DNA of 38,016 bases from positions 1 through 38,016 of the forward strand of contig JAFMLG010000013.1 in assembly GCA_017852335.1 (NCBI GenBank), given 5' to 3'. This document shows, one piece after another, positions 7,468 through 34,967 of the stretch. The translations under genes and the position numbers were made by a program. A model generated the notes under the pieces. It searched no databases. It saw only the letters and a list, made by a program, of their open reading frames with translations, and was not told the origin of the DNA. This DNA comes from Actinomycetota bacterium. Its GTDB lineage: Bacteria > Actinomycetota > Nitriliruptoria > Nitriliruptorales > Nitriliruptoraceae. Each line of letters starts with the position of its first letter. Position 1 is the first letter of the stretch.

Positions 7468-7481
7468 CCTCCGGAGCGACG

Positions 7482-11129: not shown

Positions 11130-12301
11130 CCCGCCTCCGGTCCCCCACCGGCACCGAGGAGGTCCTGGTGCTCACCGAGCAGCGGCGGGGGCGTCACGGT
11201 AGGCCGCCCCGAGCGGCCCCACACGACGGGCGGGCCGGGCAGCCGCATCGCGCCCAGCCGCGGGTGCACCACCTCGTCGACGAGGCCCAGGTGGTGCACC
11301 TGCTCCCAGCCGTAGACCTGGTCGAGGGTCCGGATGCGACCGGCCGGCACCCCGGCGGCCTCGAGGCGCTCCATCCACGTCCCGACGTCGTCCGCGGCGA
11401 GGGCGGCGGTGATGCGGGCCTCGAGCGCGTCGACGCGTTCGCGGCGGTCGCGGTTCGTCGCGAGGCCGGGCTCCTCGGGGTCGATCCCGACCAGCGGGGC
11501 GAAGCGGCGCCACAGCCCCTCGGATCCGACCGCGATCGTGATCCAGCCGTCGCGGCACCGGAAGCTGCCGTAGGGGGTGATGGTGGGATGGCGGTTCCCC
11601 GACGGCTCGGGGACCTCGCCGGCCATCGTCCACCGGGTGCCCTGGAAGGTGTGCACCGCGACCGCGGCGGCGAGCAGCGAGGTCGTCACGCGCTGGCCGC
11701 GGCCGGAGGTCTCACGCTCGCGCAGCGCGGCGACGACGCCGTAGGCGCCGAACATCCCCGAGAGGATGTCGGTGATCGGCACCCCCATCCGCGTCGGCGG
11801 GCCACCGACGGGACCGGTCAGCGACATCAGGCCCGCCTCGCCCTGCAGGATCTGGTCGAAGCCGGACCGCTCGCCGTCGGGTCCGCCCTCGCCGAAGCCG
11901 GTGATCGAGAGCACCACCAGCCGCGGGTAGCGCTGCGCGAGCGCATCCTCGCCGAGCCCGAGCCGGTCCATGACGCCGGGCCGGAAGTTCTCGACGAGGA
12001 CGTCGGCGTCGGCCACGAGGTCGTGCAGGCGGGCGACGTCACCCTCGTCCTTCAGGTCGAGCGTCACCGACCGCTTGTTCCGGTTGACCGAGAGGAAGTA
12101 TGTGGAGACCGACGCACCGTCGGCCTCGAGGAACGGCGGACCCCATCCGCGCGAGTCGTCACCGCCCTGCGGATGCTCGACCTTGACCACGTCCGCACCG
12201 GCGTCCGCCAGCATCAGGGTCGCGTAGGGACCCGCCAGCGCGCGGGAGAGGTCGACGACCCGGACCCCTGCGAGTGGACCGCCGCCCGGAGCGGCGCTCA
12301 T
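11126..12301 (-). CDS. Family III CoA-transferase (CaiB/BaiF)
   Basis: A 391-residue class III CoA-transferase. GVRVVDLSRALAGPYATLMLADAGADVVKVEHPQGGDD marks the N-terminal Rossmann part, ending with SVNRNKRSVTLDLKDEGD. The expected catalytic Asp is Asp178 in GVPITDILSG, the position that forms the aspartyl-CoA thioester in formyl-CoA transferase. HPTITPYGSFRCRDGWITIAVG and AGVPAGRIRTLDQV are typical of the C-terminal half. It moves CoA between carboxylic acids. ATG 12301 overlaps the hyuB stop as ATGA. In this operon it could activate an acid left over after ring cleavage, such as malonate, but the substrate is not readable. Confidence 0.88.
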   Translation of the reverse strand: MSAAPGGGPLAGVRVVDLSRALAGPYATLMLADAGADVVKVEHPQGGDDSRGWGPPFLEADGASVSTYFLSVNRNKRSVTLDLKDEGDVARLHDLVADADVLVENFRPGVMDRLGLGEDALAQRYPRLVVLSITGFGEGGPDGERSGFDQILQGEAGLMSLTGPVGGPPTRMGVPITDILSGMFGAYGVVAALRERETSGRGQRVTTSLLAAAVAVHTFQGTRWTMAGEVPEPSGNRHPTITPYGSFRCRDGWITIAVGSEGLWRRFAPLVGIDPEEPGLATNRDRRERVDALEARITAALAADDVGTWMERLEAAGVPAGRIRTLDQVYGWEQVHHLGLVDEVVHPRLGAMRLPGPPVVWGRSGRPTVTPPPLLGEHQDLLGAGGGPEAG

Positions 12302-19783: not shown

Positions 19784-20430
19784 GTGAGCAGCGACCCGAG
19801 GACGACGCCGACGACGACGAGCGCGCCGCCGAGCACGGCGGCCAGCGCGAGGTCGGAGGGACGCCGGGCGACACCGGACGTCGGGATGCCCGGACCCGGT
19901 CCGGCCGTGCCGGGCGTGACCCCGGAGGCGGGGGCGGAGGCGGCGACGGGGGCGGTGGCCGGACCCGTCGCCGCGGCCGCTGCGGGCGTCCGCTCGCCGC
20001 GGACGTCCGCCTCGACGGCGGCGAAGAACTGGCCGGCCATCCGCTTCGCGACGCCGGCGATCATGCGCTGCCCGACCCCGCCGATCATCCCGCCGACGAC
20101 CGCCTCGGCCTCGTAGCGGACCCGCGTCCCGCCCTCGACCTCGTCGAGTTGGACGACGGCGTCCGCGCTGACGGTCCCGGCGGTCCCGGAGCCTCCGGCG
20201 CGGAGGCGGTAGCGCTCGGGCTCGACGCGGTCCGAGAGCTCGACGGTCCCGAGGTAGGTGCCCTTGATGCTCGCGACGCCCGCCGTGATGGTCGCCCGGT
20301 ACGAGTCCGGTCCCGTCGCCTCGAGGCGCTCGCAGCCCGGCAGGGTCCGGGCCAGGACGGCCGGGTCCATGAGCGCCTCCCAGAGCCGCCGACGCGGGAC
20401 GCCGACGGTGACGCTGCCCTCGATCCTCAT
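19780..20430 (-). CDS. coxG: CoxG-like SRPBCC protein with C-terminal membrane anchor
   Basis: A 216-residue protein. Residues 1 to about 150 form a CoxG (START/SRPBCC) domain with MRIEGSVTVGVPRRRLWEALMDPAVLARTLPGCERLE at the front and GGMIGGVGQRMIAGVAKRMAGQFFAAVE at its last helix. An Ala/Pro/Gly-rich linker of about 40 residues follows, then a hydrophobic segment LALAAVLGGALVVVGVVLGSLL at the very end. In CO-oxidising bacteria CoxG helps recruit the molybdenum hydroxylase to the membrane, so the tail is a likely anchor. ATG 20430 follows GAGGAG, eleven bases after the coxL-like stop. Its place in the operon ties the enzyme to the membrane and perhaps to the quinone pool. Confidence 0.85.
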   Translation of the reverse strand: MRIEGSVTVGVPRRRLWEALMDPAVLARTLPGCERLEATGPDSYRATITAGVASIKGTYLGTVELSDRVEPERYRLRAGGSGTAGTVSADAVVQLDEVEGGTRVRYEAEAVVGGMIGGVGQRMIAGVAKRMAGQFFAAVEADVRGERTPAAAAATGPATAPVAASAPASGVTPGTAGPGPGIPTSGVARRPSDLALAAVLGGALVVVGVVLGSLLT

Positions 20431-20440
20431 GCTCGGCTCC

Positions 20441-22819
20441 TCAGCGGTGGTCGGCCGCGACGCGCAGGGCGTGCAGCCGGGACGGGGACAGCGGCATCGC
20501 GTCGATGCCGACGCCGACGGCGTCCTCGATGGCGGACGCGAGCGCGGCCGAGCCGGGGATGACGCCCGCCTCGCCCGCACCCTTGATCCCGAGCGGGTTC
20601 AGCGGTGATGGGGTCTCGAGGTGGTCGACGGCGACGGCCGGGACCTCCGAGGCGTACGGCATCAGGAAGTCCATGAACGACGCGTTGAGCAGCTGGCCGT
20701 GCTCGTCGTACGCCATCTCCTCGTACAGGGCACCGCCGACGCCCTGGGCGACCCCGCCCATGATCTGCCCCTCCACGATCATCGGGTTGATGAGCGTGCC
20801 GCAGTCGTGCACGACGGAGTAGCGCAGGATCCTCACGTCCGACGTCTCGGGGTCGACCTCGACCTCGACCGCGTGCATGCCGTTCGCGAACGTCGAGCGC
20901 AGCGGCGAGTAGAAGTCGGTCCCCTCGAGCCCGGGCGACTCCCCCGCCGCGACCGGCGGTCGGTCCGTCGTCCCCGGCGAGGCGAACTGCGTCGCGATCC
21001 GCGCGGACGCGTCGAACGCGTAGCGGAGCGGGTTCGACATGGTTGCGAGGACGCCGAGCGGGATCGACGTGGCCGGGCTGCCGACGACCCGGACGTGGCC
21101 GTCCACCAGCTCGAGGTCCTCGACGTCGACCTCGAGCGCCTCGGACGCGATGCGCAGCGCCTTCTCCCGGACCTTCAGGGCGGCGAGGTGGATCGCGTTC
21201 CCGCTCATGACGGCCGCCCGCGAGGCGAACGTCCCGACGGCGTAGGCGAAGCGGCGCGTGTCGCCGGTGACGACCTCGACGTCCTCGAACGGGACGCCGA
21301 GCGCGTCGGCGACGACCTGCGCGAACGCCGTCCGGTGACCCTGCCCCTGGGTCGAGAGGCCGGTCGCGACCTTCACCTTCCCGGTCGTCTCGACCTGCAC
21401 GTGGCCGCCCTCGTAGGGACCGACGCCGGTCCCCTCGACGTACGCCGCCATCCCGATCCCGAGGAGCCGCCCCGCTGCCTCGGCCGCGGCGCGGCGCGCG
21501 GGGAAGCCGTCCCAGTCGGCCAGCTCGCGCAGCTTCGCGAGCGAGGCCGGGAAGTCACCGGAGTCGTAGGCGTAGGGCCGGCCGTCCTGGAAGGTCAGCC
21601 CGAAGTCGTACGGCATCTCGTCGGGCCGGATCAGGTTGCGCTCGCGGACGAGGGTGCGGTCGAGCCCGAGGTGGCGGGCGATGCGGTCCATCGTCCGCTC
21701 CATCGCGAAGCAGCCCTGCGGACGCCCGGCGCCGCGGTAGGGGCTGACCGGGACGGTGTTGGTGTAGAGGCTGTCGAACCGGACCCGGTAGTCGGTGATC
21801 CGGTAGGGCCCCAGCAGCTGGGTCGACGTGATGATCGGGACGATCAGCCCGTAGGGGATGTAGGCCCCGTGGTCGTGCAGCAGGCGGACGTCGAGCCCGA
21901 GGATGCGGCCATCGTCGTCGAACCCGACGTCGATGAACTGGACCTGCCCCCGCTCGTGGTTCGCGGAGATGAAGTGCTCCCGGCGGTCCTCGGTGAACTT
22001 GACCTCGTGGCCGAGGAGCCGCGCGGCCCAGGGGACCAGCAGCTCCTCCGGCCACGGGTGCACGATCTTGACCCCGAAGCCGCCCCCGATGTCGGGCGCG
22101 ACGCACTCGACCTGAGCCAGGGGCAGCTCGAGGTACGAGGCCACGACCGCGCGCACGCTGGTCGGCGTCTGCGTCGAGGAGTGCACCCGCAGGCGCTGGT
22201 CGTCGGCGTCCCAGCGGGCGTGCACGCCGCGGGTCTCCATCGGCGTCGAGGCCGAGCGGTCGATGTCGAGGCGGAACGTCAGGCGGTTCGGCGCCGCCGC
22301 GATCCGGCCCGGCGCGTCGCCGATCTCCTGGGTCAGGGTGGCGGCGAGGTTGCCGGGGATGTCGTCGTGGACGAGGAGCTGCCCGGACGCGGCGCGCTCG
22401 TGGCCGACGACCGCCGGCAGCGGCTCGTACGCGACGTGGATGCGGTTCGCCGCGTCCTCGGCGAGGTAGCGGTCCCGCGCGACCACCATCGCGACCGCCT
22501 CGCCGACGTGGTTGACCTCGCCCGCCGCGAGCACGTGCTGCGTGCGGGCCGCGGTCAGGGCAGGGTGGGGGATGAGCACCGGCAGCCGCTCGCGCAGGCG
22601 CGGCGGGAGGTCCTCGTAGGTGTAGACGGCGACGACCCCGTCGACGTCGAGGGCGCCCGTGACGTCGATGTCGAGGACGCGGGCGTGCGCGTGGGGACTG
22701 CGGACGATCGCGACCTCGTACGCGCCCTGCCCCAGATCGTCGAGGTACCGGCCCTCCCCGCGGAGCAGCCGCGGGTCCTCGGTCCGCAGGACCGGCGCGC
22801 CGAGCATCCGGGTCGTCAT
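20441..22819 (-). CDS. coxL: Molybdenum hydroxylase large subunit (CoxL/xanthine dehydrogenase type)
   Basis: A 792-residue molybdopterin-binding subunit. It begins with GAPVLRTEDPRLLRGEGRYLDD, as in CoxL proteins. PDIGGGFGVKIVHPWPEELLVPWAARLL and VSPYRGAGRPQG (residues 359-369) bind the cofactor, as do GLSTQGQGHRTAFAQVVADALG and the catalytic base Glu750 in GIKGAGEAGVIPG. The active-site loop reads PYRGAGR, not the AYXCSFR that carries the Cu-Mo cluster of form I CO dehydrogenase. So it should be a hydroxylase of an N-heterocycle or similar compound, in the broad form II group. ATG 22819 overlaps the coxS stop as ATGA. With the neighbouring barbiturase-type gene, a uracil/thymine dehydrogenase is a good hypothesis. 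Confidence 0.9.
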   Translation of the reverse strand: MTTRMLGAPVLRTEDPRLLRGEGRYLDDLGQGAYEVAIVRSPHAHARVLDIDVTGALDVDGVVAVYTYEDLPPRLRERLPVLIPHPALTAARTQHVLAAGEVNHVGEAVAMVVARDRYLAEDAANRIHVAYEPLPAVVGHERAASGQLLVHDDIPGNLAATLTQEIGDAPGRIAAAPNRLTFRLDIDRSASTPMETRGVHARWDADDQRLRVHSSTQTPTSVRAVVASYLELPLAQVECVAPDIGGGFGVKIVHPWPEELLVPWAARLLGHEVKFTEDRREHFISANHERGQVQFIDVGFDDDGRILGLDVRLLHDHGAYIPYGLIVPIITSTQLLGPYRITDYRVRFDSLYTNTVPVSPYRGAGRPQGCFAMERTMDRIARHLGLDRTLVRERNLIRPDEMPYDFGLTFQDGRPYAYDSGDFPASLAKLRELADWDGFPARRAAAEAAGRLLGIGMAAYVEGTGVGPYEGGHVQVETTGKVKVATGLSTQGQGHRTAFAQVVADALGVPFEDVEVVTGDTRRFAYAVGTFASRAAVMSGNAIHLAALKVREKALRIASEALEVDVEDLELVDGHVRVVGSPATSIPLGVLATMSNPLRYAFDASARIATQFASPGTTDRPPVAAGESPGLEGTDFYSPLRSTFANGMHAVEVEVDPETSDVRILRYSVVHDCGTLINPMIVEGQIMGGVAQGVGGALYEEMAYDEHGQLLNASFMDFLMPYASEVPAVAVDHLETPSPLNPLGIKGAGEAGVIPGSAALASAIEDAVGVGIDAMPLSPSRLHALRVAADHR

Positions 22820-23361
22820 GCTGCGCCCTCCGGTCGGTGGCGCTCGCGCGGGTCGACGCCGGTCCCCGCGAGCTCCTCGGCCGCGCCGGCGACCGCCGCG
22901 AGGATCCCGGCGTAGCCGGTGCAGCGGCAGAGGTTCCCGCTCATCGCGTCGCGGATCGTCGCCGCGTCGGGCGCGGGCTCCTCTGCGAGGAACGCGCAGG
23001 CGGTCATGATGAAGCCGGGCGTGCAGAACCCGCACTGCAGCCCGTGGTGCTCCTGGAAGGCGCGCTGGACCGGGTGGAGCGTCCCGTCCTCGGCGGCGAG
23101 CCCCTCGACCGTCGTGACGGCGCGGCCGCTGACGCTGACCGCGAGCGTGAGGCAGGAGCGGACCGGCATGCCGTCGAGCAGGACGGTGCAGGCGCCGCAG
23201 ACCCCGTGCTCGCACCCGACGTGGGTCCCGGTCAGCTCGAGGTCGTGGCGCAGCAGGTCGCTCAGGAGCCTGCGCGCGGGGACCCGGGCGCGCCGGACCT
23301 GCCCGTTGACCGTGAGCTCGACGTCGTGGAGCGCCTCGGGTGCCGGCGTCGTGCGGTCCAT
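22816..23361 (-). CDS. coxS: Molybdenum hydroxylase [2Fe-2S] subunit (CoxS type)
   Basis: A 181-residue iron-sulfur subunit with two clusters. The plant-ferredoxin-like cluster uses Cys50, Cys55, Cys58 and Cys70 (CEHGVCGACTVLLDGMPVRSC). The second, all-helical cluster domain uses Cys110, Cys113, Cys145 and Cys147 (CGFCTPGFIMTACAFL and GNLCRCTGY). It passes electrons from the molybdenum site in the large subunit to FAD in the medium subunit. ATG 23361 follows GGAGGGG. The gene order M-S-L is the usual one for cox-type operons. Confidence 0.93.
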   Translation of the reverse strand: MDRTTPAPEALHDVELTVNGQVRRARVPARRLLSDLLRHDLELTGTHVGCEHGVCGACTVLLDGMPVRSCLTLAVSVSGRAVTTVEGLAAEDGTLHPVQRAFQEHHGLQCGFCTPGFIMTACAFLAEEPAPDAATIRDAMSGNLCRCTGYAGILAAVAGAAEELAGTGVDPRERHRPEGAA

Positions 23362-23380: not shown

Positions 23381-24262
23381 TCAGCGGACGCCGGCGCCGG
23401 CGCGCGCCAGCGCGTCCGCGGCCGCGGCGCGCACCGCGCGTCCCGCGAGCACCCCCGCGAGATGGCGGCGGTAGGCGGCGTCGGCGTGCACGTCGTCCTG
23501 CGGCTCGACGAAACCCGCGACCGCGGCAGCGACGTCCACGACATCGAGATCCGCGGCGTCGCGCCCCGCGACCGCCGGCGAGAGGTCGAGCACGGCGGTA
23601 CCGGTCCCGACCCCGATGAAGGTCGCCCGCGCCCCGACGATGCGCCCACCGTCGACCGCGACCTCCGTCGCGACCCCGGCGAGGGCGTAGTCGCCGTGCC
23701 GGCGCGAGAGCTCGACGAACGCCGAGCCCGTCCCCGGCGCGGCGACCGGGACGCGCAGCTCGAGCGCGAGCTCGTCGGGGGCGACGTCGGACTCGAGCGG
23801 ACCGCGGACCAGGTCGGCGGCCTCGATGGAGCGACGACCGCGGACGCTCGCGACCTCGAGCGTCCCGCCGAGCAGCGCGACGACCGCGGGCATCTCGGCC
23901 GCGGGGTCGGCGTGGACGACGGACCCGACCGTGGTCCCGCGGTTGCGGATCACCGGGTGCGCGACGAGGTCGAGCGCGCGGCGCAGCAGCGGCTGGACCG
24001 CCGCGACCGCGTCGTCGCGACGCAGCCGCTCGTGCGTCACGCCGGCACCGATGCGGACGTGTCCGTCGGCGACCTCGAGCACGTCGAGCCCGGGGATGCG
24101 GCCGATGTCGATCAGCGCCGCCGGCTCCGCCAGCCGCATGTTGAGCAGCGGCACCAGGCTCTGCCCGCCCGCCAGGACCTTGGCACCGTCCAGCGCGGCC
24201 AGCAGCGTCAGCGCCTCCTCGACGGAGCGTGGCGCGTGGTAGGCGAACGGCGGTGGCTTCAT
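23381..24262 (-). CDS. coxM: Molybdenum hydroxylase FAD-binding subunit (CoxM type)
   Basis: A 293-residue FAD subunit. FAYHAPRSVEEALTLLAAL is the conserved start. FAD-binding motif 1 is KVLAGGQSLVPLLNMRLAEP with AGGQS at 31-35. Motif 2 is NRGTTVGSVVHADPAAEMPAV at about 107-127; the family's usual TIGG is TVGS here. SAFVELSRRHGDYALAGVA belongs to the C-terminal domain. It takes electrons from the iron-sulfur subunit and gives them to an acceptor such as quinone or NAD. Its ATG overlaps the NmrA-like stop codon by four bases, and coxS follows after 19 bases. Confidence 0.92.
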   Translation of the reverse strand: MKPPPFAYHAPRSVEEALTLLAALDGAKVLAGGQSLVPLLNMRLAEPAALIDIGRIPGLDVLEVADGHVRIGAGVTHERLRRDDAVAAVQPLLRRALDLVAHPVIRNRGTTVGSVVHADPAAEMPAVVALLGGTLEVASVRGRRSIEAADLVRGPLESDVAPDELALELRVPVAAPGTGSAFVELSRRHGDYALAGVATEVAVDGGRIVGARATFIGVGTGTAVLDLSPAVAGRDAADLDVVDVAAAVAGFVEPQDDVHADAAYRRHLAGVLAGRAVRAAAADALARAGAGVR

Positions 24263-25206
24263 GTCGGGTCGACCCCCCCAGCACCCTCGGGACGCTGACC
24301 CTCGACGCTACCCGAGCGCCCCTCCCGGCCCCCCTCCGGACCGGCGAGGACGCGCGCGACGACCGCCGGCATCGCCGTCGGCTCGCGTCCGAGGAGCGCG
24401 CGCAGCACGGTCGCGTCCCCGGGCGAGCCGTGCCGGTCGTAGTGCCGGACCATCGCGAGGAGACGGCGGCGCCGCTCCTCCCCCGCCGGCCCGGCGGGAG
24501 CGGCACCCGCGACCCATTCCTCGGGGTCCAGGCGCTCGGCCGTCACGCCGCGACCGAGCGCGGTCGCGGCGGCGGCGGCCACGTCGCGGGCCGAGACCTC
24601 GGCGGGGCCGCTCAGCTCGAAGGTCGCGTGGACGCCGAGCCCGTCGAGGAGGCAGCGGGACGCGACCTCCGCGACGTCGGCGAGGTCGACGAGGGCGCTC
24701 CGGGCGTCGACGTCGTAGGGCACGGCCAGCCGTCCGGCCCGCAGGGAGCCCGGGTCGCCGAGCAGGTTCTGCACGTAGGCGTTGGGCTGCAGCAGCGTCC
24801 ACGCGACGGCGGAGGCGAGCAGGACCTCCTCGGCCCGGGCCTTGTCCGCGTGGTGGGGCATCGCGGTCAGCTGCGGGTGGACGACCGAGTGCAGCACCGC
24901 ACGCCGGACCCCGGCGACCGCGCAGGCCGCGACCGCGGCCTCGGCCATCGCGACGTCGTCGGGGGACATGTTCGGCGCGATCAGGTGGACGGCGTCGGCG
25001 CCCTCGAGCGCCCGCGCGAGCAGCGCCGCGTCGCGCTGGTCGCCGACGACCGCGTCGACCCCCTCCGGCAGCCGCGCCGCGTGGTCGGGCGTGCGCACCA
25101 CGCCCGTCGCGGCGGCGCCGCGCGCGCGCACCGCGGCGAGGACGGCGCGGCCGGTCTTGCCGCCGGCACCGGTGACGACGACGCGGACGCGGGCGGGGAC
25201 CGTCAC
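24259..25206 (-). CDS. NmrA-like NAD(P)-binding protein
   Basis: A 315-residue atypical short-chain dehydrogenase. The N-terminal TGAGGKTG (residues 12-19, TGxxGxxG pattern) binds NAD(P). DAVVGDQRDAALLARALEGADAVHLIAP, VLHSVVHPQ and WTLLQPNAYVQNLL are typical of the NmrA/azoreductase-like group, whose members act as redox sensors or quinone/isoflavone-type reductases. The usual Tyr-x3-Lys catalytic pair of classical SDRs is not seen. It is locked into the operon by 4-base overlaps on both sides, between the DUF1116 gene and coxM. A step in the same pathway or a regulatory role are both open. Confidence 0.8.
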   Translation of the reverse strand: MTVPARVRVVVTGAGGKTGRAVLAAVRARGAAATGVVRTPDHAARLPEGVDAVVGDQRDAALLARALEGADAVHLIAPNMSPDDVAMAEAAVAACAVAGVRRAVLHSVVHPQLTAMPHHADKARAEEVLLASAVAWTLLQPNAYVQNLLGDPGSLRAGRLAVPYDVDARSALVDLADVAEVASRCLLDGLGVHATFELSGPAEVSARDVAAAAATALGRGVTAERLDPEEWVAGAAPAGPAGEERRRRLLAMVRHYDRHGSPGDATVLRALLGREPTAMPAVVARVLAGPEGGREGRSGSVEGQRPEGAGGVDPT

Positions 25207-26648
25207 GCCACCGCGCCGTCCGGCTCCGGTGCGAGCTCGGCGAGCGCGAGCACCGCGTCCCGGAACGCCGAGATCGGCGGGGTCACGAGCCCGGCGCCGA
25301 CCTGCCCGGTCCCGGCGACGCGGCCGGCGATGCCGGTGTTGACGACGGGCACGGTCCCGGTCCGGGCCACGAGCGTCGCGTCGATGCCGACGGGCGTGCC
25401 GCGCGACTCGAGGACCGGGATGCGCAGGTGCGGGTGCTCGGCCAGCGTGATGCCGTACATGCTGCGGGTCGCGGCCAGCGCGTCCGCGGCGCGGCCGCCG
25501 ATGAACCCGACGATCGCCGGCGCCGCGGCCATCGCGAACCCCCCGAGCCCCGCGGTCTCCATGATGGTCGAGTCGCCGATGTCGGGGTTCGCGTCCTCCG
25601 GCCCGTACCCGCTGAACAGCAGCCCCTGCGGCACCTGCGCCGGACCGGTGAACCAGCGGTCGCCGGTCCCGGACAGCTGGATGCCGAACTCGGTGCCGTT
25701 GCGCGCCATCGCGACGACGACGCTCGACCCCGGGAGGTCGCGGGCGGGGTCGGTCGCCGACTTGGCGGCCGGCATGCCGAGGTTGAGGAAGAAGTGCTCG
25801 TTGCCGTTGATGAACCGCACGACGTCGGCGACGGTCGAGCCGTCGAGCCCGGCCTCCAGGAGCGGCGGGACGAGCGCCCGCACGACGAGCGCCGAGCCGG
25901 CGCGGTTGCGGTTGTGCAGCTCGTCGCCCATCTGCAGCGCCTGCACCTCGATGGCGCGGAGGTCGAGCGAGCCGAGCCGTCCGACGGCGGCGGCCATCGC
26001 GGGCGCGAGGACCGCGGCCATCCACCGCAGCCGCTCGAGCACCTCGGGTCCGAACGCCCCGTAGCGCAGCACCTTGCCGAGGCCCTCGTTCAGGGTCGCG
26101 TGCGCGCGGTTGCCGAACGCCGCGTTCTCGACCACGAGCACCGGCATCGACGGGCTCACGACCCCGGCCATCGGGCCGACCGTCCGGTGGTGGTGGCAGG
26201 AGTCGAGCTCGATGGCGCCGCGCTCCGCGAGCGCCTCCGCCTCCTCCGGCGTGCTCGCCAGGCCCTCGAGGAGCATCGCGCCGATCAGCGCGCCGCGGAG
26301 GGGTCCCGAGGCCGCCTCCCAGGCGATGGGAGGGCCGGCGTGGAGGAACTGGCCGCGCTCGAGGCCGAGCGCCTCGGCCGCGGTCGAGACCCCGACCCAG
26401 TGCGGCTCGGCCGCGACGATCCGCTCGACCGCCGTCCGGTTCGCCTCGGCGCGCCGGGGGTCGGCGGCGATGCGCGCCAGCGCCGGACCGGTCCCCTCGA
26501 CGGGCGGGCGCCACTCGACGTCGAGGACGTCGACGCCCTGGTCGCGGAGGCTCGTCGAGAGCAGGTCGATGCCGGCGGCCGCGACGCGGGGCCGTCCGGC
26601 GAGCAGCGCGTCCGCCGCGCCGTGCGACGGCGTCGGGGATGCGGTCAT
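25203..26648 (-). CDS. DUF1116 / YlbE-like subunit of a carbamoyltransferase
   Basis: A 481-residue DUF1116 protein, homologous to E. coli YlbE (AllG). Signature stretches are GAMLLEGLASTPEEAEALAERGAIELDSCHHH, ALQMGDELHNRNRAGSALVVRAL, FINGNEHFFLNLGMPAAKSATDPA and GPEDANPDIGDSTIMETAGLGGFAMAAAP. In E. coli, FdrA, YlbE and YlbF together were reported to be the long-missing oxamate carbamoyltransferase of allantoin catabolism, turning oxalurate and phosphate into oxamate and carbamoyl phosphate. The same three plus carbamate kinase sit together here. ATG 26648 follows GGAGGTG and overlaps the fdrA stop. The actual ureide used here is unknown, since no allantoin genes are present. Confidence 0.87.
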   Translation of the reverse strand: MTASPTPSHGAADALLAGRPRVAAAGIDLLSTSLRDQGVDVLDVEWRPPVEGTGPALARIAADPRRAEANRTAVERIVAAEPHWVGVSTAAEALGLERGQFLHAGPPIAWEAASGPLRGALIGAMLLEGLASTPEEAEALAERGAIELDSCHHHRTVGPMAGVVSPSMPVLVVENAAFGNRAHATLNEGLGKVLRYGAFGPEVLERLRWMAAVLAPAMAAAVGRLGSLDLRAIEVQALQMGDELHNRNRAGSALVVRALVPPLLEAGLDGSTVADVVRFINGNEHFFLNLGMPAAKSATDPARDLPGSSVVVAMARNGTEFGIQLSGTGDRWFTGPAQVPQGLLFSGYGPEDANPDIGDSTIMETAGLGGFAMAAAPAIVGFIGGRAADALAATRSMYGITLAEHPHLRIPVLESRGTPVGIDATLVARTGTVPVVNTGIAGRVAGTGQVGAGLVTPPISAFRDAVLALAELAPEPDGAVA

Positions 26649-28117
26649 CGGGCACCTCCTGCGAGTGCGACGGCGAGGCGGGCCGCCTCCGCGTTCGAGA
26701 CGGTGACGTGGGCGCCCGCGGCCGCGAGGGCGGTGGCCTGCCGCTCGAGTCCCTGCGGGTCCCCGCGGCCGCCGCAGAGCGAGACGACGACGTCGAGCTC
26801 GCGGCCGGCGGTCGCGGCGTCGTCCCGGACCCTCGCGACGAGGGGGGCGAGCTCGGCGGCGGGGTCGGGGTGCGCGGCGTGCCCGAGCACGACGTCGAGG
26901 AGCAGGACCCGCGCGGTCGGAGCCTCGGCGAGGATGCGGTCGGCGCGGAGCCGCCCGTCGATCATCGGGTGCGGGCGACCGCGGGTGAACTCGTCCTCCC
27001 CGAGGTCGAGGAGGAGGTGTCCCGCGACGGGCGTGGCGCCGCCGACCCGCAGCGGGGCGGGGACGACGACGTTGGCGTGCACGTCTCCGAGCGCGGCGCG
27101 GGCGATCAGCACGGCCTCGGCGCAGAGCGTCCCGCCGGCGAACAGGCCGACGAGGCGACCGGGGGCGGAGGGGACGGGGCGCTCACCCCAGGACGGCCAC
27201 GGGTCGGGCACGCTCCCGCCGGCGGCGGCGCCGACGTCCGCGGCGACGGCCGTGAGGTCCGGCCGGCCCTCGCCGAGCAGCGCGGTCACGAGCGGGGTCC
27301 GCAGCGTGGCCACCACCTCCTCGACGCGGCGGGCTACCTCCGGGTCGGGCGGCTTCGAGAGCAGCACGATGCGCTCGGTCGCGGGGTCCTCGTCGAGCAT
27401 CCGCAGGGCCCGAAGCGTCGAGCGGCCGCCGACCGCGGCCGAGAGGTCGCGCCCGCCGACGCCGAGCACGTGCGAGACGCCGACGCCGGCGAGGTCGAGG
27501 AGGCAGGCCAGCTGCTGCGCGCCGGTGCCGCTGGCGGCGACGACGCCGACCGGTCCGGGGCGGACGACGTTCGCGAACCCGAGCCCGACCCCGCCGACGA
27601 TCGCGGTGCCGGCGTCGGGACCCATCACGAGCACCCCGCGCTCGTCGGCGCGGCGCTTCAGCGCGACCTCCTGCGCGACCGTCACGTTGTCGCTGAACAC
27701 CATGACGTGGACGCCCGCCTCGACGGCGTCGAGCGCCTCGACGAAGGCGTGGTCACCGGGGGTCGAGATCAGCGCGAGGTCGGCTCCGCGGGCGACGGCG
27801 TCGCCGACGGTCCGCGGTGCGGCCTCGCCGGCGTCGGCCGAGGACGCCGCCGGGCGCGCGGCCAGCGCCGCGGCGAGCGCCGCCAGCGCGGCGTCGAGCG
27901 CGGCCGCGTCGTGGGCCCGGACGGCCACGACCAGGTCGTCGGGACCGGCGGACGGGACGGCGAAGCCCAGGTCGCCGAGCAGCGCGACGTTCAGCTCGGT
28001 CGCCATCGCCACGAGGCCGGCCTCGACGCCCTCGACCGCCGTCACGGCTGCGCTGACCTGCATGAGCGCGACGGAGTCGGCGTAGTGGCCGCGGCGGACC
28101 TCGACGTGGTCGGTCAT
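26645..28117 (-). CDS. fdrA: FdrA-like carbamoyltransferase subunit
   Basis: A 490-residue FdrA protein, related in fold to the alpha subunit of succinyl-CoA synthetase. It opens with VEVRRGHYADSVALMQVS. Its first nucleotide-binding-like domain contains GVHVMVFSDNVTVAQEVALKRRADERGVLVMGPDAGTAI, then GPVGVVAASGTGAQQLACLLDLAGVGVSHVLGVGGRDL and LLSKPPDPEV. The C-terminal domain carries LVGLFAGGTLCAEAVLIA and HLLLDLGEDEFTRGRPHPMIDGRLRADRI. With DUF1116 and DUF2877 it should catalyse phosphorolysis of a carbamoylated amide. I choose ATG 28117 (GGAG six bases upstream, ATGA overlap with the upstream gene); an in-frame ATG at 28129 is the alternative. Confidence 0.88.
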   Translation of the reverse strand: MTDHVEVRRGHYADSVALMQVSAAVTAVEGVEAGLVAMATELNVALLGDLGFAVPSAGPDDLVVAVRAHDAAALDAALAALAAALAARPAASSADAGEAAPRTVGDAVARGADLALISTPGDHAFVEALDAVEAGVHVMVFSDNVTVAQEVALKRRADERGVLVMGPDAGTAIVGGVGLGFANVVRPGPVGVVAASGTGAQQLACLLDLAGVGVSHVLGVGGRDLSAAVGGRSTLRALRMLDEDPATERIVLLSKPPDPEVARRVEEVVATLRTPLVTALLGEGRPDLTAVAADVGAAAGGSVPDPWPSWGERPVPSAPGRLVGLFAGGTLCAEAVLIARAALGDVHANVVVPAPLRVGGATPVAGHLLLDLGEDEFTRGRPHPMIDGRLRADRILAEAPTARVLLLDVVLGHAAHPDPAAELAPLVARVRDDAATAGRELDVVVSLCGGRGDPQGLERQATALAAAGAHVTVSNAEAARLAVALAGGAR

Positions 28118-29124
28118 CGCGGGCTCCATGGGTCGGTGGCGACGAGCGCCGGTGCGTCGGACGGTCGGAGGATGGAGGACCGGAGGGCGGCGGGCGGGGG
28201 GACGGCGGGCTCGAGCGTGACCGCGGCGTCCGTCCCCGCGCCGGCCGCGAGGCGGAGGGCGAGGAGCATGCCCTCGGCGAGGTCGCGCCCGCTGCTGGCA
28301 CCGAGGGCGAGCAGATCGGCGAGCGCGGCCCGGGTCCCGCTCGGGTCCCGGCGGTCCGCCGGGGCCAGCAGGGCGAGCAGCAGGCGCGCGGCCGGCGAGA
28401 CCATCGCGCCCCCGACCGCGTCGCGCAGGAGCGAGGCCGAGAGCAGCGTCGTCCGGTCGGCCGCGATGTCGAGCACGGCGGACCGGACCGCGCCCAGCAC
28501 CGGGCCCGACCGCGTGTCGACGCCCGCGCGCCCGAGCACCGCGGCCGTCGCGAGGAGGCCGGCGAGGACGTCGTCCCCGGACGGGGTCAGGCCCGGTCCG
28601 ATCCCGACGAGCTCCCGGCCCGCGCCCGCGGCGGCCACGGGGTCCCGCCGGTCGAGGGCGTCGCGGAGCGCCCCGACGCGCGCGTCGACCGCGTCGGCGA
28701 CGGCGTCGGCGACGCGACGCGCGACCGCGTCGGTCACGAGGAGTCCCTCGAGCCGCCGGGCGGCAGCGGAGGGGTCCGCGCCCGCCGGGGGCCTCGGCCG
28801 CGGGTCGAACCATCGCGACGGGACGAGCCGGAGCGGACCGATGCGGACGACGCCCCCGCCGACGCCCGCGGACGCGTCCCGCGCGAGCCCCACGAGGCCG
28901 GCCCGGTCCCGCTCGACGGGGAGCACGAGCGCGGCCGGGGGTACCGCGGCGTCGCGTGTCACGACGGCGATCGTCCGGCTCGGATCCTGCGGGTCGGCGA
29001 GGTACAGGGCGGCGGGGAAGGCGGCGAGGACCTCGAGCGTCCGGTCGGGGCCGTCGACGTGGTCGGCGAGCAGGACGCTGACCGCGACGGGGACGCGCGT
29101 CGCGGCGCCGGGCGCGACGCTCAC
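28114..29124 (-). CDS. DUF2877 / YlbF-like subunit of a carbamoyltransferase
   Basis: A 336-residue DUF2877 protein, homologous to E. coli YlbF (AllH). The family signature LVGIGPGLTPSGDDVLAGLL is clearly present at about residues 167-186, and a conserved stretch TTLLSASLLRDAVGGAMVSPAARLLLALL follows. RIAVVTRDAAVPPAALVLP-like strands make up the N-terminal part. It is the third partner of the FdrA and DUF1116 subunits. Start GTG 29124 overlaps the carbamate kinase stop as GTGA, and the stop overlaps the fdrA start. The frame stays open upstream into the kinase gene, but that part is antisense-free shadow reading and not family-like. Confidence 0.83.
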   Translation of the reverse strand: MSVAPGAATRVPVAVSVLLADHVDGPDRTLEVLAAFPAALYLADPQDPSRTIAVVTRDAAVPPAALVLPVERDRAGLVGLARDASAGVGGGVVRIGPLRLVPSRWFDPRPRPPAGADPSAAARRLEGLLVTDAVARRVADAVADAVDARVGALRDALDRRDPVAAAGAGRELVGIGPGLTPSGDDVLAGLLATAAVLGRAGVDTRSGPVLGAVRSAVLDIAADRTTLLSASLLRDAVGGAMVSPAARLLLALLAPADRRDPSGTRAALADLLALGASSGRDLAEGMLLALRLAAGAGTDAAVTLEPAVPPPAALRSSILRPSDAPALVATDPWSPR

Positions 29125-30116
29125 GGCCGGTCCCCGACGACCCGCGTGCCGACCCGGCCCTCGAGCGCGGGACCGACCTCGTCGAGCGAGGCGATCACGG
29201 CCGAGTCCCCTCCGGCCTCCACGAACCGGCAGGCGGCCTCGACCTTGGGTCCCATCGAGCCGACACCGAAGGCGCCCGACGCGGCGAGCGCGCGGAGCTC
29301 GGCGACCGGGACCTCGCCGAGCCACCGCTCCTCGGGGGTGCCGTACCCGACGGCGACCCCGCGGACGTCGGTGAGGATCACGAAGCGGTCGGCACCGAGC
29401 TCGGTGGCGAGCAGGGCACCGGCGAGGTCCTTGTCGATGACCGCCTCGACGCCGCGGAGGCGGCCGTCATCCCCGCGCACGGTGGGGACGCCACCACCGC
29501 CGTTCGCGACCACGACCGCGCCGCCGTCGAGGAGGTCCCGGATGACCTCGAGCTCGAGCGACGCCAGCGGTGTCGGCGAGGGCACGGTCCGCCGCCACCC
29601 CGCCGCGGTCGCTGCGAAGGTCTGCCCGGTCCTCCGGCGACGCTCGACCTCGGCCTCGTCGGTGATCCTCGGGCCGACCGGCTTGGTCGGGGCCGAGAAG
29701 GCCGGGTCGTCGGCCGCGACGAGGACGCGGCTGACCAGCGGGACGACGGTCCGGGGCGCTCCGTGGCCCGCGAGCTCGTCGCCGAGCGCGTTGGCGAGCG
29801 TGAAGCCGATCGTGGCCTGGGTCTGCGCCACGCACCAGTCGAGCGGGACCGGCGGGACGACGTCGCGGGCGAGCTCGTTCTTCAGCAGCAGGTTCCCGAC
29901 CTGCGGGCCGTTCCCGTGGGTCAGGACGACCTGGCGAACGCCGCCGGCGATGACCCCGGCCAGCCCTGCCATCGCCGCCGCGATCGACGCGGTCTGCTCG
30001 TCGGCGGTCCCGGTCCGCCCGGCGGGGACGATGGCGTTCCCGCCGAGCGCGACGACCACGCGCTCGGACCCGAGGGACCCCCCGGACCCCCCGGAGCGAC
30101 GTGTCCTCGCCGCCAC
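29121..30116 (-). CDS. arcC: Carbamate kinase
   Basis: A 331-residue amino-acid-kinase-fold enzyme. VVVALGGNAIVPAGRTGTADEQ (from about residue 20), VVLTHGNGPQVGNLLLKNEL, PLDWCVAQTQATIGF, VVANGGGGVPTV, VEAVIDKDLAGALLATELGADRFVILTDV and FGVGSMGPKVEAACRFVEAGG are textbook carbamate kinase motifs. It makes ATP from carbamoyl phosphate and ADP, releasing carbamate, which decays to ammonia and CO2. It is the first gene of the leftward operon, directly before the three carbamoyltransferase subunits, so catabolic ATP formation is the likely direction. GTG 30116 follows GGGAGGTG. The N-terminal 17 residues (ARTRRSGGSGGS) are an extra, low-complexity extension. Confidence 0.93.
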   Translation of the reverse strand: MAARTRRSGGSGGSLGSERVVVALGGNAIVPAGRTGTADEQTASIAAAMAGLAGVIAGGVRQVVLTHGNGPQVGNLLLKNELARDVVPPVPLDWCVAQTQATIGFTLANALGDELAGHGAPRTVVPLVSRVLVAADDPAFSAPTKPVGPRITDEAEVERRRRTGQTFAATAAGWRRTVPSPTPLASLELEVIRDLLDGGAVVVANGGGGVPTVRGDDGRLRGVEAVIDKDLAGALLATELGADRFVILTDVRGVAVGYGTPEERWLGEVPVAELRALAASGAFGVGSMGPKVEAACRFVEAGGDSAVIASLDEVGPALEGRVGTRVVGDRP

Positions 30117-30350: not shown

Positions 30351-31778
30351 TCACTGGCCGGCGGCGAAGGGCGGCACGACGCCCTTCTCGACGGAGCCGA
30401 TGCCGCGCTCCTCGTCGGTGCCGGGGATCAGGTTGTCGAGCAGGATGCCGAGCACCGCGGCGGTCGCGATGCCGGAGGAGAAGATCGAGCGGACGACGGT
30501 CGTCGCCCAGTCGATCCCGAAGAACGAGAAGTCCGGGTTGCTCCCGAAGTACTGCGGGAACACGAACCCGCTGAAGAGCACGAACCCGGCGATCATCAGG
30601 TTGCGCTGCGAGTCCATGTCGGCCCGGCGGAGGTTCGAGAGCCCGACCGCGGCGATGAGCCCGAACAGGGACAGGTACACGCCGCCCACGATGGGCGTCG
30701 GGATCGTGGTGATGACCCCGCCGACCTTCGTGATGATGCCGAGGACGACGAGCAGACCGGCGCCGAGCAGGACGACGCGGCGGCTCGCGACCTTCGTCAG
30801 ACCGACGAGTCCGATGTTCTCGGAGTAGGAGGTCGAGGCGAACCCGCCCACGACCGCCGTGGCCGCGCAGCCGAGGCCCTCGGCACCGATCCCGCGGTTG
30901 ATCTCCTCGGCCGAGGGGTCGTGACCCCGGGCCATGCGGGAGACCGCGTGGTAGTCACCGAAGGACTCGATGATCGAGGCCAGGTAGGCGGCCACGAACG
31001 CGATGATGAAGGTGAAGTCGAACAGGGGGGTACCCCACGGGAAGACGATCCCGCCGCCCCCGACCTCGACACCCCGGACCCACGGCGTCGCCGCGGCGCC
31101 GTCGAAGCTGACGGCGGCGGCACCGGTGAAGACGCCGGCCACGGTCATGATCCACGCGAACGCGTACGCGGTGATCACGGCGAGCAGGACCGGGAAGAGC
31201 GAGAACATCCGGACCTTCGGCGCCAGGATCAGCGAGTACACGAAGATCAGCGCGAGCGTGAGCAGCGCCAGCGGCCAGTGGAACGAGGCTGTGTCCGCCG
31301 CCGCACCGAACAGCGAGAGACCGATCATCGCGATGACCGGCCCGATCGTGATCGGGGAGATGAAGCGACGGATCAGGCCCATCAGGCCGCCGAAGCCGAT
31401 GATGACCTCGATGACGGCGCCGGCGATGATCATCCCGGCGATGTAGCGCATGGCCTCGGCGCCCTGGTACTGCCCAGCGATCGCGAAGAACGCACCCAGG
31501 AACGCGAACGAGACGCCCTGCACGATGGGCAGGCGCGAGCCGAACGTGACCTGGATCGCCGTCGCGATGCCGGAGGCGATGAAGACCGAGCTGATGAGGA
31601 TCGCGATGTCGGGGCCCTGGAACCCGAGCGCCGGGCCGACCAGGAACGGCACGAGGATCGTCGCGCCGAACATCGTCAGCACGTGCTGGGCCCCGAGGCC
31701 GAGGGCCTTCGGGAACGGCTTCGGGACGTCATCGATCCCGTAGTTCAGACCGAGACCGCCCGCGGTGGTGGAGCTCAT
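30351..31778 (-). CDS. NCS2 (NAT) family nucleobase permease, uracil/xanthine type
   Basis: A 475-residue membrane transporter of the nucleobase-ascorbate family, expected to have 14 helices in two inverted repeats. The conserved substrate-site pair Gln31-His32 appears in LGAQHVLTMFGATILVPFL, and the NAT signature SENIGLVGLTKVASR is at about 319-333. ALGFQGPDIAILISSVFIASGIAT and IIESFGDYHAVSRMARG are also standard. It imports a base such as uracil or xanthine with protons. ATG 31778 is preceded by GAGAGGGGAAG. It is alone in its transcript, between hairpins on both sides, and next to the barbiturase-type gene. That makes it the probable uptake system for the pathway's substrate; the exact base cannot be read from sequence. 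Confidence 0.9.
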   Translation of the reverse strand: MSSTTAGGLGLNYGIDDVPKPFPKALGLGAQHVLTMFGATILVPFLVGPALGFQGPDIAILISSVFIASGIATAIQVTFGSRLPIVQGVSFAFLGAFFAIAGQYQGAEAMRYIAGMIIAGAVIEVIIGFGGLMGLIRRFISPITIGPVIAMIGLSLFGAAADTASFHWPLALLTLALIFVYSLILAPKVRMFSLFPVLLAVITAYAFAWIMTVAGVFTGAAAVSFDGAAATPWVRGVEVGGGGIVFPWGTPLFDFTFIIAFVAAYLASIIESFGDYHAVSRMARGHDPSAEEINRGIGAEGLGCAATAVVGGFASTSYSENIGLVGLTKVASRRVVLLGAGLLVVLGIITKVGGVITTIPTPIVGGVYLSLFGLIAAVGLSNLRRADMDSQRNLMIAGFVLFSGFVFPQYFGSNPDFSFFGIDWATTVVRSIFSSGIATAAVLGILLDNLIPGTDEERGIGSVEKGVVPPFAAGQ

Positions 31779-31842
31779 GCTTCCCCTCTCCGGATGCAGT
31801 CCGCCGACGACGCGCGCCGGCGGGGGGTGGATCCCCTCTCCC

Positions 31843-31867
31843 ACCGTCCGGGTCGGGCCCGGACGGT
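31843..31867. promoter_or_regulatory. Hairpin in the permease leader
   Basis: ACCGTCCGGG (31843-31852) and CCCGGACGGT (31858-31867) form a perfect 10-base stem with a 5-base loop. It lies 64 bases upstream of the permease ATG and just downstream of a TANNNT candidate TACGCT (complement of 31899-31904), so it would be in the 5' untranslated RNA. A GAGAGGGGA sequence appears twice in this leader, once near the hairpin and once as the ribosome-binding site. No known riboswitch class was recognised. Confidence 0.45.
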
Positions 31868-32054: not shown

Positions 32055-33158
32055 TCAGTCGACCCGGACGATCGCCGCGACGGGTCCGCCGCCGAGCGGT
32101 CCCTGGTGCAGCGCGGCGACCGAGACGAACACGGCGCTGTCGCCGACCGTCGCCGCCGTGACCCCGCCGACCGCGCCCTTGATCTGCCGGTGGTGGTGGA
32201 CGTCGGAGTCGTCGAGCGGGAGCTGCCGGCGTCCGCGCAGCTTCCCGCGCGGGTCGGCCTCGCACTTGAGGAAGACGTTCACGAGCCGCCCGCCGAGGTC
32301 GGTGTGGTGCGGCCGCTCCGGCAGGTCGAGCCCCGCCGAGCGGATCGCATCCCAGATGCCGTCCTGGTCGATGGCGTCGCGCATGGCGGCGTGTCCGACG
32401 CGGTAGTGGCTGCGGCTGCCGGCGGCGTTGCCGACCAGAACGATCTGCGCCCGGTCGAGCTCGACCCCCGACGAGCAGGAGGCGACGGTCGAGAACAGCG
32501 AGTGGTCGCGACCGATCGCCTCGGCGGCCGGGACGCCGGGGATCTCGCCGAGCGCGAGGGCGATGCCCAGCGCCGTCGTCCCGTTCGAGATGTCCATCGA
32601 GTACAGCGTGTCCTCGGTGTACACCGTCATCCCCCGGCGGTGCGCGTCGGCGATCGTGTCCTGCACCAGGAGCGGGGTCTTCGTCTGCACGTAGTGGACG
32701 TCGGCCACGTCGGTGATGCCGGCGGCGGCCATCGCGCGCCGCACGCCCTCGGCGACCTTCTCGACCATCGCGGGTCGGCCGATGTCCTCGGGGAGGAGCA
32801 CGTCGGACATCGCGATGCCGACGCTGAGTCGCTTCTCGTCCGTGTCCGCGCCCTTCGTGTCGGGGACGCGGGCGAAGATCGTCGCGTGGGGGGTGATGAC
32901 CCCGTCGCAGCCGCCGGACCAGGCCATCGGGATCGCCTTCACGTCGGCCTCGGATCGCGAGCCGTGCTCCATGAGCACCCCGCGGAAGGCCTGGTCGGCG
33001 AGGATGCGGGTGTAGTCGTTGACCCCGCCGTTGCCCTCGGTCTTGCCGATGACCGCGACGACCTCGTCCGCGGTGAACACGCCGTCGCGGATCAGTCGCT
33101 CGAGACCGGACGCGTCCGTGACGCTGGTGATCTCGACCTTGCGGACCTCGAACGGCAT
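32055..33158 (-). CDS. Barbiturase / cyanuric acid amidohydrolase family enzyme
   Basis: A 367-residue member of the small ring-opening amidohydrolase family (AtzD/TrzD, barbiturase), built of three similar domains each giving a Lys-Ser pair to the active site. Candidates here are Lys39 ([16 protein letters not shown]) with Ser81 ([13 protein letters not shown]), Lys160 ([10 protein letters not shown]) with Ser230 ([10 protein letters not shown]), and Lys298 with Ser341 ([21 protein letters not shown]). The spacing agrees with what is known for AtzD. Barbiturase opens barbiturate to ureidomalonate; the sister enzyme opens cyanuric acid. No biuret hydrolase is nearby, while a nucleobase permease and a molybdenum hydroxylase are, so barbiturase is favoured. 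ATG 33158 follows GGGAGGT. It diverges from the PucR-type regulator. Confidence 0.88.
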
Positions 33159-33308: not shown

Positions 33309-34967
33309 ATGGGCGCGAGCGGGAGCCGAACCGGTCGGAGCGGCCGCGGTCGCGGCCGAGGGCGGAGCGGGGGCGGCGACCGTTCCTGGACGGTCGAGGA
33401 CGTCCTCGGCGCACCGTCGCTCTCGGGGGCCCGGATCCTCGCCGGTGCGGCCGGACTGACCCGCGTCGTCGAGCGCCTCAACGTCATGGAGGTGCCGGAC
33501 GTCGTCCCGTGGACCGCGCCGAACGAGCTGCTGCTCACCACCGGCTACCCGCTCCGGGACGACCCCGACCAGCTCGTCCCGCTGATCGCCGAGCTCGACC
33601 GCGTGGGCCTGGCCGGGCTCGGGGTGAAGGTCGGCCGGTTCCTGGCCGAGGTCCCCGCCGCCGCCGTGGCGCGCGCCGAGACGCTCGGCTTCCCCCTGAT
33701 CGAGCTGCCGACCGAGCTCCGGATCGACGACGTGCTGCACGACGTGCTCGGGCGGATGCTCGACCGCGCACGGTCGGACCAGCGCAGCGGTGAGCAGCTG
33801 CACCGCTCGTTCCTCGACGTCGTCCTCGCGGGGGGCGGGCTGCCCGACATCGCCGGAGCGCTCGCCGCGCACCTCGGAACCCCGGTCGCCGTCGTCGACC
33901 TCGTGGGAACGGTCCTCGCCGGGATCGACCTGCAGTCGCTCGGCCTCGACCCCGCGGAACGGCTGCCGGTGCCGCCGGGCGGTCACGGCGTCCTCGTCGG
34001 TGGGCTGCACCTCTCCGCCGCGTCGGTCGTCGCGGGACGGCGGTGGCACGGCTGGGTCGTCGCGATCGGACGCGGGCCGATCGCCGAGGAGGACGGGGCG
34101 GCGCTCGAGCACGCGGCGACGATGGTCGCGCTGACGCTGACGCAGGCCGAGGAGCTGCGCGCGGTAGAGGACCGCTACCGGACCGGGCTGATGCACGACC
34201 TGCTCGCCGGCGGCGACGACCCGTCCGAGCTGCGCCGACGGGCGACCGACTTCGGCTGGGACGTCGACCGCGAGCTGATCGTGCTCGTCGCGCGCCGGGA
34301 GGCGGAGGGATCGCCCGACGGGACCGAGGAGGTCCGCGACCTCGACGTCGGCGCCCGGCGGCTGTTCACCGAGCGTGACCCGGGCGCGGCCGTGGTCGCG
34401 TTCGGGCGCGAGGTCGTGGCCCTCACCGCGCCGTTCCGGGGTCCGACGGGCCGCGCCGACGCCGTCGCCTTCGCGGGTCGCGTGTCCGCCGCCCTCGCCC
34501 GCGCGGTCGGCGGTCCGGTCTCGATCGGGCTGGCGCGACCGGTGCCGGACGCGTCCCGTCTCCCGGAGGCGTACGAGCAGGCCCGCCGTGCGGTCGCGAT
34601 CGGACGTCGGGTGCACGGGCCGATGGCCGTCGCCCACTTCGACGAGCTCGGCGTCCACCGGGTCCTGGCCTCGGTGCCCGAGCCGGAGCTCCGGTCCTTC
34701 GCGCAGGAGGTCCTCGGCCCGCTGGCCGCTCCCGACGCCGGGATGCTCGACCTCCGCAGGACGCTGCGCGAGCTGCTGCAGACCGGCGGGAACGTCGCCG
34801 AGGCGGCCCGCCGGCTCCACTTCCACTACAACACGCTGCGCTACCGCATCGAGAAGCTGCGGGCGCTGCTGGGACCGTTCACCGAGGATGCGCGGCTGCG
34901 CCTCGACGTCGAGGTCGCCCTGCTCATCCTCGAGCACGACGACGCCACGGCGGAGCGGCGCGGCTGA
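33309..34967 (+). CDS. pucR: PucR-family transcriptional regulator
   Basis: A 552-residue regulator of the PucR (CdaR/PurC) type. After a Gly/Arg-rich tail of about 25 residues, the N-terminal PucR domain (about 27-150) reads TVEDVLGAPSLSGARILAGAAGLTRVVERLNVMEVPDVVPWTAP. LLLTTGYPLRDDP and LGFPLIELPTELRIDDVLHDVLGRM follow. A middle GGDEF-like region covers about 290-440 (VSIGLARPVPDASRLPEAYEQARRAV). The C-terminal helix-turn-helix is LRELLQTGGNVAEAARRLHFHYNTLRYRIEKL. In Bacillus, PucR controls purine catabolism; homologues often sit beside nucleobase or ureide degradation genes. It probably controls the neighbouring barbiturase-family gene and perhaps the whole island. ATG 33309 has a GGGGGG site upstream. 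Confidence 0.9.
   Translation: MGASGSRTGRSGRGRGRGRSGGGDRSWTVEDVLGAPSLSGARILAGAAGLTRVVERLNVMEVPDVVPWTAPNELLLTTGYPLRDDPDQLVPLIAELDRVGLAGLGVKVGRFLAEVPAAAVARAETLGFPLIELPTELRIDDVLHDVLGRMLDRARSDQRSGEQLHRSFLDVVLAGGGLPDIAGALAAHLGTPVAVVDLVGTVLAGIDLQSLGLDPAERLPVPPGGHGVLVGGLHLSAASVVAGRRWHGWVVAIGRGPIAEEDGAALEHAATMVALTLTQAEELRAVEDRYRTGLMHDLLAGGDDPSELRRRATDFGWDVDRELIVLVARREAEGSPDGTEEVRDLDVGARRLFTERDPGAAVVAFGREVVALTAPFRGPTGRADAVAFAGRVSAALARAVGGPVSIGLARPVPDASRLPEAYEQARRAVAIGRRVHGPMAVAHFDELGVHRVLASVPEPELRSFAQEVLGPLAAPDAGMLDLRRTLRELLQTGGNVAEAARRLHFHYNTLRYRIEKLRALLGPFTEDARLRLDVEVALLILEHDDATAERRG

Follow-up and report, generated by a model that had tools for sequence, protein, structure and literature searches.

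A carbamoyltransferase gene set linked to barbiturase in Actinomycetota and its probable role in the phosphorolysis of ureidomalonate

The oxamic transcarbamylase of E. coli is composed of three subunits, AllF (FdrA), AllG and AllH, and works with the carbamate kinase AllK (PMC11326118, PMC9843812). It is the only characterised complex of this type, acts on oxamate/oxalurate and was assayed in the reverse direction (PMC11326118). We analysed a stretch of 38,016 nucleotides (the window; contig JAFMLG010000013.1 of assembly GCA_017852335.1) from a member of the Nitriliruptoraceae (Actinomycetota), and found that all three subunits are encoded together there with a carbamate kinase. A preliminary description had seen no allantoin genes in the window, and we likewise found none among the window genes scanned. 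This raises the question of what such a complex acts on when its usual partners are missing. We are largely confident in the answer developed below, that AllFGH is a ureidomalonate carbamoyltransferase whose product would give ATP through carbamate kinase; the support for it is genomic, not biochemical.

The genes for carbamate kinase, AllH (DUF2877), FdrA and AllG (DUF1116) all lie on the minus strand and overlap serially by 4 bases. This arrangement had been described before, and the Pfam matches and the three junction sequences bear it out: GTGA between carbamate kinase and AllH (29121-29124), ATGA between AllH and FdrA (28114-28117), and ATGA between FdrA and AllG (26645-26648). Codirectional genes for an NCS2 permease and an AtzD-family protein are located directly upstream of carbamate kinase, and a three-subunit molybdenum (Mo) hydroxylase, CoxG and an amidase follow downstream of AllG in the same direction. 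Beyond the amidase are HyuA, a cytosine-deaminase-like amidohydrolase, HyuB, a class III CoA-transferase and CoxDE-type maturation genes. The preliminary description had placed the module in one operon with the Mo hydroxylase and the amidase; the codirectional array is operon-like. The permease and carbamate kinase are separated by about 230 bases with a strong GC hairpin (about 30279-30304, no T run), which may be an attenuator or a transcript boundary, so that two transcripts are possible.

FdrA and carbamate kinase scored below strict NCBIfam cut-offs. The window FdrA scored 380 bits, under the NCBIfam FdrA cut-off of 433, and is judged from this to be a diverged FdrA. The carbamate kinase scored 341 bits with TIGR00746 (arcC; cut-off 358) and 276 bits with PRK12352 (cut-off 266). 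Between the barbiturase-linked and AllD-linked groups, 96 AllG and 90 FdrA positions were invariant in both. Residues specific to one group were also listed, but we draw no conclusion from them, as the AllD-linked side had only three AllG and one FdrA sequences and no ligand-bound structure was at hand. AllG Asn246 versus Gln188 was considered as a residue distinguishing the groups and dropped, as 3clq of E. faecalis likewise has Asn.

The window AtzD-family protein scored 512 bits with PDB 5hwe ('Barbiturase'; 69% identity) versus 293 bits with the best cyanuric acid hydrolase. Peat et al. reported the positions that separate the two enzymes (PMC3758960), and the alignment showed the barbiturase residue at every listed position (Asn192, His323, Lys327, Val347 and Ala348); in AtzD numbering, the protein has the Ser-Lys dyads and Asn195, His321, Lys325, Val345 and Ser/Ala346. 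Unlike the glutamine given for barbiturases at the first specificity position in PMC4051656, this residue is Asn in the aligned 5hwe and in PMC3758960. On scores and specificity residues we reject the reading as a cyanuric acid hydrolase, and by these features the gene is predicted to encode a true barbiturase of the group VI type. They also bear on the idea of an s-triazine/biuret array, in which the AtzD-family enzyme would be a cyanuric acid hydrolase and AllFGH would act on biuret or carboxybiuret. Family membership speaks for it, as does the position of allFGHK next to genes for biuret/triuret breakdown in comammox Nitrospira (PMC12625717). Yet the scores and residues are of the barbiturase type, the window genes scanned included no recognised biuret hydrolase, and the amidase of the array is malonamidase-like; we consider this idea very improbable.

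The preliminary description had noted a barbiturase-family gene close to the module, and the survey showed that it is more than a neighbour and belongs to a conserved array. In a sample of 397 genomes from the single phylum Actinomycetota, AllG was found in 48 and AtzD-family genes in 26; a barbiturase-type gene was present in 21 genomes from six families, and all 21 had AllG. Fisher tests gave p = 5e-22 by genome and about 6e-14 by genus, values uncorrected for the tree and inflated by kinship. Within the window's class, 18 of the genomes listed had both genes and none had just one, and the array is conserved across the class, the closest named loci coming from metagenome-assembled genomes (MAGs) of Nitriliruptoraceae. 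Three genomes of the window's genus (G052, G206 and G394; 1.1-1.7 Mb) lack both, which may mean that the whole locus was acquired or lost together in this genus.

When named genomes were scanned with an alignment of barbiturases, 80 loci were obtained, all titled Actinomycetota or member groups; carbamate kinase was located within 500 bp of barbiturase in 57 of them, and AllG inside the fetched flank in 29. Fifty further barbiturase genomes, mostly picked for having no AllG in the flank, were then considered: 48 had AllG above 310 bits, in 13 it was on the same-numbered contig, and in 12 of these 13 it was 9-54 kb from barbiturase. Plasmid records with barbiturase had no annotation in that stretch. 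In Acidimicrobiia, barbiturase, AllH, FdrA and AllG are directly adjacent in this order, and in some a Mo hydroxylase follows AllG (L071:9394-11778, L154:16160-18553; the former best on XdhA/4-hydroxybenzoyl-CoA reductase models). It is only about 29% identical to that of the window, which suggests a different subfamily in the same slot.

The strongest argument comes from genomes in which the complex is missing. One genome in the compared family has a barbiturase 100% identical to 5hwe, whose organism we take to be Rhodococcus, and we treat the family as Rhodococcus and its relatives. AllG, AllH and full-length carbamate kinase were missing in nine of its ten barbiturase-type genomes (G604 and G614 share a genus with G551). 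In eight of these nine, a different amidase-signature protein lies directly beside barbiturase (e.g., L212:11040-12518, plus strand), and in the ninth, G499, a 374-aa protein with no Pfam family takes this place (L217:3974-5098, minus strand). The tenth, G461, has AllG, AllH and carbamate kinase, and the Rhodococcus-type amidase is absent. Close homologues of this amidase occurred only in L200-L206, L208, L212-L214 and L216 of the surveyed loci, and in no AllG-linked locus surveyed, including the window. G534 and G521 both keep the Mo hydroxylase (60%) close to barbiturase, a uracil phosphoribosyltransferase gene is divergent from barbiturase in L212, and HyuAB is retained in these relatives. 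As cited in PMC3758960, the published oxidative route runs from barbiturase to a hydrolytic ureidomalonase that gives malonate and urea (Soong 2001/2002). Because the two gene sets swap at the same place of the pathway, AllFGH with carbamate kinase would perform the ureidomalonate step, and the Rhodococcus-type amidase is a candidate for the gene of the hydrolytic ureidomalonase.

The amidase of the window is of another kind. Its best PDB relative is malonamidase E2 (242 bits versus 147 for the next family), and it retains the equivalents of the Lys62-cisSer131-Ser155 triad and of Arg158 in the context GTQTxGS[VI][VI]RP. Arg158 of malonamidase E2 is reported to bind the substrate carboxylate. 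Complete amidases from four further barbiturase arrays keep this signature too; those of AllFG clusters without barbiturase have GTDTAGSIRIP instead. If the complex cuts ureidomalonate as the E. coli complex cuts oxalurate, the amide product would be malonamate, which fits a malonamidase-like amidase. Loci outside the window's class may use a nitrilase-family enzyme: such an amidase follows CoxG in Embleya and in a Pseudonocardiales MAG (L199:16692-17591, L194:807-1730), at the position that the malonamidase-like enzyme occupies in arrays of the window's class, and is a possible non-homologous replacement. In L194, a BKACE-family gene is also nearby (2333-3358).

The amidase of the operon could also be the ureidomalonase itself, leaving AllFGH and carbamate kinase for another carbamoyl compound such as a HyuAB product. 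An amidase fold may plausibly hydrolyse ureidomalonate, since an amidase-signature enzyme adjoins barbiturase in Rhodococcus relatives, and enzymes of the HyuAB type convert hydantoins to N-carbamoyl compounds by ring opening. However, the window and Rhodococcus amidases share only about 28% identity, the window enzyme has the malonamidase signature that the other lacks, and the genes of the complex adjoin barbiturase in Acidimicrobiia. In addition, HyuAB persists in Rhodococcus relatives without AllFGH, which indicates that it is independent of the complex. We regard a direct ureidomalonase as improbable, and prefer phosphorolysis by AllFGH followed by the malonamidase-like enzyme.

To use oxalurate in the manner of E. 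coli, the complex would be expected to go with AllD and the upstream allantoin genes, and this supply was not found in the window genome (1.7 Mb, 82 contigs, 97% complete, 76% GC): allantoin genes elsewhere in the genome, raised in the preliminary description as a possible objection, were searched for, and AllD and AllC gave no match and allantoinase only a sub-cut-off one. Arginine deiminase, another source of carbamoyl phosphate for carbamate kinase, had no match in this genome either. AllD exceeded its cut-off in only two of the 397 genomes (G381 and G389), both with E. coli-type AllG and without an AtzD-family match, and was below cut-off or missing in all barbiturase genomes. In a tree of 73 AllG sequences, the 41 main copies of the barbiturase genomes all fell in one clade (support 100/99), and the AllD-linked copies, including that of E. 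coli, fell in another (100/100). The neighbourhood comparison proposed earlier thus came out in favour of the barbiturase link: barbiturase and its AllG clade are nearly always together, and AllD occurs only with the other clade.

These results also weigh on a rival explanation, that of an ordinary oxamate carbamoyltransferase using oxalurate, either external or formed when HyuAB opens a cyclic ureide such as parabanate, with barbiturase nearby through shared nitrogen regulation. The known activity of the E. coli complex, the conservation of HyuAB near the complex, and the allFGHK genes without upstream allantoin genes in comammox bacteria and ammonia-oxidizing archaea (PMC12625717) agree with it. 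It does not account well for the separate clade, the lack of AllD at cut-off, the malonamidase-like amidase in the operon, or the coincidence between loss of the complex with its kinase and the new amidase at barbiturase, and we give it little chance.

For the preceding step, the molybdopterin subunit of the Mo hydroxylase matched the NCBIfam label CODH_aero_grp5 with 1372 bits. The active-site loop of form I CoxL is AYxCSFR. In the alignment, the window subunit has SPYRGAGR (YRGAGR), not AYxCSFR or CSFR; on this loop we reject the reading as a CO dehydrogenase, and the label is probably misleading. We propose the following scheme, in which gene content, gene order, co-occurrence, clades and conserved and active-site residues were observed directly. 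Uracil would be taken up or derived from cytosine or nucleosides; the Mo enzyme would hydroxylate it at C6 to give barbiturate, whose ring barbiturase would open to ureidomalonate. The FdrA-AllG-AllH complex, working in the catabolic direction, would convert ureidomalonate and phosphate to malonamate and carbamoyl phosphate, from which carbamate kinase would transfer phosphate to ADP, giving ATP and carbamate (CO2 and NH3). The malonamidase-like amidase would release malonate and NH3 from malonamate, and the CoA-transferase (malonate to its CoA ester) with an AccAD-like protein would bring malonate into central metabolism. We infer each of these reactions for this organism, above all what the complex and the Mo enzyme act on.

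Several observations weigh against this scheme. HyuAB is conserved in the array and has no place in it, and the malonamidase-type amidase was found only in loci of the window's class. Four genomes with barbiturase and AllG (G402, G407, G415 and G422) had no full-length carbamate kinase match, and the MAG G399 has carbamate kinase and barbiturase and no AllG. In G442 (L195, Modestobacter muralis), a barbiturase array is present with AllH in the genome, and AllG and carbamate kinase were not found; the assembly may have a gap here, or the pathway may be in decay. Finally, a sister AllFG clade stands beside HyuAB and a Mo hydroxylase without barbiturase (L080:9712-19998, L083:168-14281, L084:2661-16751), so that AllFGH in other bacteria probably serves other acyl-urea substrates. 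The L083 and L084 clusters have a GSIRIP-type amidase, L084 also an acyl-CoA ligase, and the three clusters probably represent another cyclic ureide pathway using AllFGH.

The features of the array are collected in Table 1. The AccA/AccD-like protein also adjoins barbiturase, carbamate kinase and the CoA-transferase in other genomes (L199, L215).

Table 1. Genes of the barbiturase-AllFGH array and its surroundings in the window
Feature	Position	Strand	Evidence
PucR-family regulator, divergent from barbiturase	33318..34967	+	PF07905, HTH_30
Barbiturase (AtzD/TrzD family)	32055..33158	-	PF09663 463 bits
NCS2 nucleobase (xanthine/uracil) permease	30351..31844	-	PF00860 278 bits
Carbamate kinase (AllK/ArcC-like, AA_kinase)	29121..30116	-	TIGR00746 341 bits; PRK12352 276 bits
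AllH (DUF2877) subunit	28114..29124	-	PF11392 71 bits
FdrA/AllF subunit	26645..28117	-	PF00549; NF004760 380 bits; PDB 3dmy FdrA 220 bits
AllG (DUF1116) subunit	25203..26648	-	PF06545 316 bits; 46% identity to E. coli AllG
NAD(P)-binding epimerase/reductase-like protein	24259..25200	-	Weak NCBIfam matches; neighbour in several relatives
Mo hydroxylase FAD subunit	23381..24262	-	PF00941
Mo hydroxylase 2Fe-2S subunit (approximate start)	22816..23349	-	PF01799
Mo hydroxylase molybdopterin subunit, candidate uracil C6-hydroxylase	20441..22816	-	Quinoline 2-oxidoreductase 1t3q best PDB match
CoxG-like accessory protein	19780..20448	-	PF06240
Amidase-signature enzyme, malonamidase E2-like	18479..19783	-	PDB malonamidase E2 242 bits
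HyuA-type (hydantoinase/oxoprolinase) subunit	15458..17545	-	PF01968; kept in relatives
Cytosine-deaminase-like amidohydrolase	14178..15461	-	PF07969; PDB cytosine deaminase 117 bits
HyuB-type subunit	12298..14181	-	PF02538
Class III CoA-transferase, candidate malonate activator	11126..12301	-	PF02515
CoxE-like VWA protein and MoxR-type ATPase (Mo-enzyme maturation)	8978..11129	-	PF05762; MadB_ATPase
AccA/AccD-like carboxyltransferase	7464..8990	+	PF03255/PF01039
Pyrimidine-type nucleoside hydrolase	6370..7467	+	PF01156; RihA 338 bits

Taken more generally, it is likely that a dedicated AllFGH subfamily exists for ureidomalonate (3-oxo-3-ureidopropanoate), that phosphorolysis with ATP gain is usual in barbiturase-bearing actinobacteria, and that hydrolysis is a replacement in the Rhodococcus lineage. 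In E. coli these genes split a product of allantoin; in many actinobacteria of soil and sediment they are tied to barbiturase and probably split its product, so that uracil breakdown would yield ATP. We consider it probable that this is a known carbamoyltransferase type in a variant with a new substrate, and that it forms a new branch of oxidative pyrimidine breakdown. To our knowledge, ureidomalonate carbamoyltransferase activity has no EC number, and in the literature searched, which lacked most subscription papers, no paper mentioned both barbiturase and carbamate kinase, or both ureidomalonate and carbamoyl phosphate. If the proposal is true, a type of carbamoyltransferase first identified in 2024 gains a second natural substrate, oxidative pyrimidine breakdown becomes energy-yielding, and a pathway known mainly through enzyme work since the 1950s receives a gene-level account, which includes a candidate for the ureidomalonase gene of Rhodococcus. 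Annotations of AllFGH as oxamate carbamoyltransferase and of the Mo enzyme as CO dehydrogenase would then probably be wrong in many actinobacterial genomes.

Compared with known systems, the window set is most similar to E. coli AllFGH and AllK, with the same three subunits encoded together with carbamate kinase in a single operon, AllG proteins that are 46% identical, and the same proposed chemistry, the phosphorolysis of an acyl-urea. It differs in being linked to barbiturase, a Mo hydroxylase and a malonamidase-like amidase, whereas the E. coli set is linked to AllCDE, and its AllG belongs to a separate clade and its proposed substrate is longer by one CH2. The allFGHK clusters of comammox bacteria and ammonia-oxidizing archaea also lack upstream allantoin genes, but are linked to triuret/biuret hydrolases rather than barbiturase (PMC12625717). 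Malonamidase E2 (PDB 1ock) shares the catalytic triad and Arg158 with the window amidase and is 44% identical to it over the aligned part; the window enzyme lies in a pyrimidine operon. The oxidative pathway of Rhodococcus has the same ring-opening enzyme and a related Mo hydroxylase near barbiturase, but there ureidomalonate is hydrolysed, whereas in the window, which has no Rhodococcus-type amidase, we predict its phosphorolysis by AllFGH and carbamate kinase.

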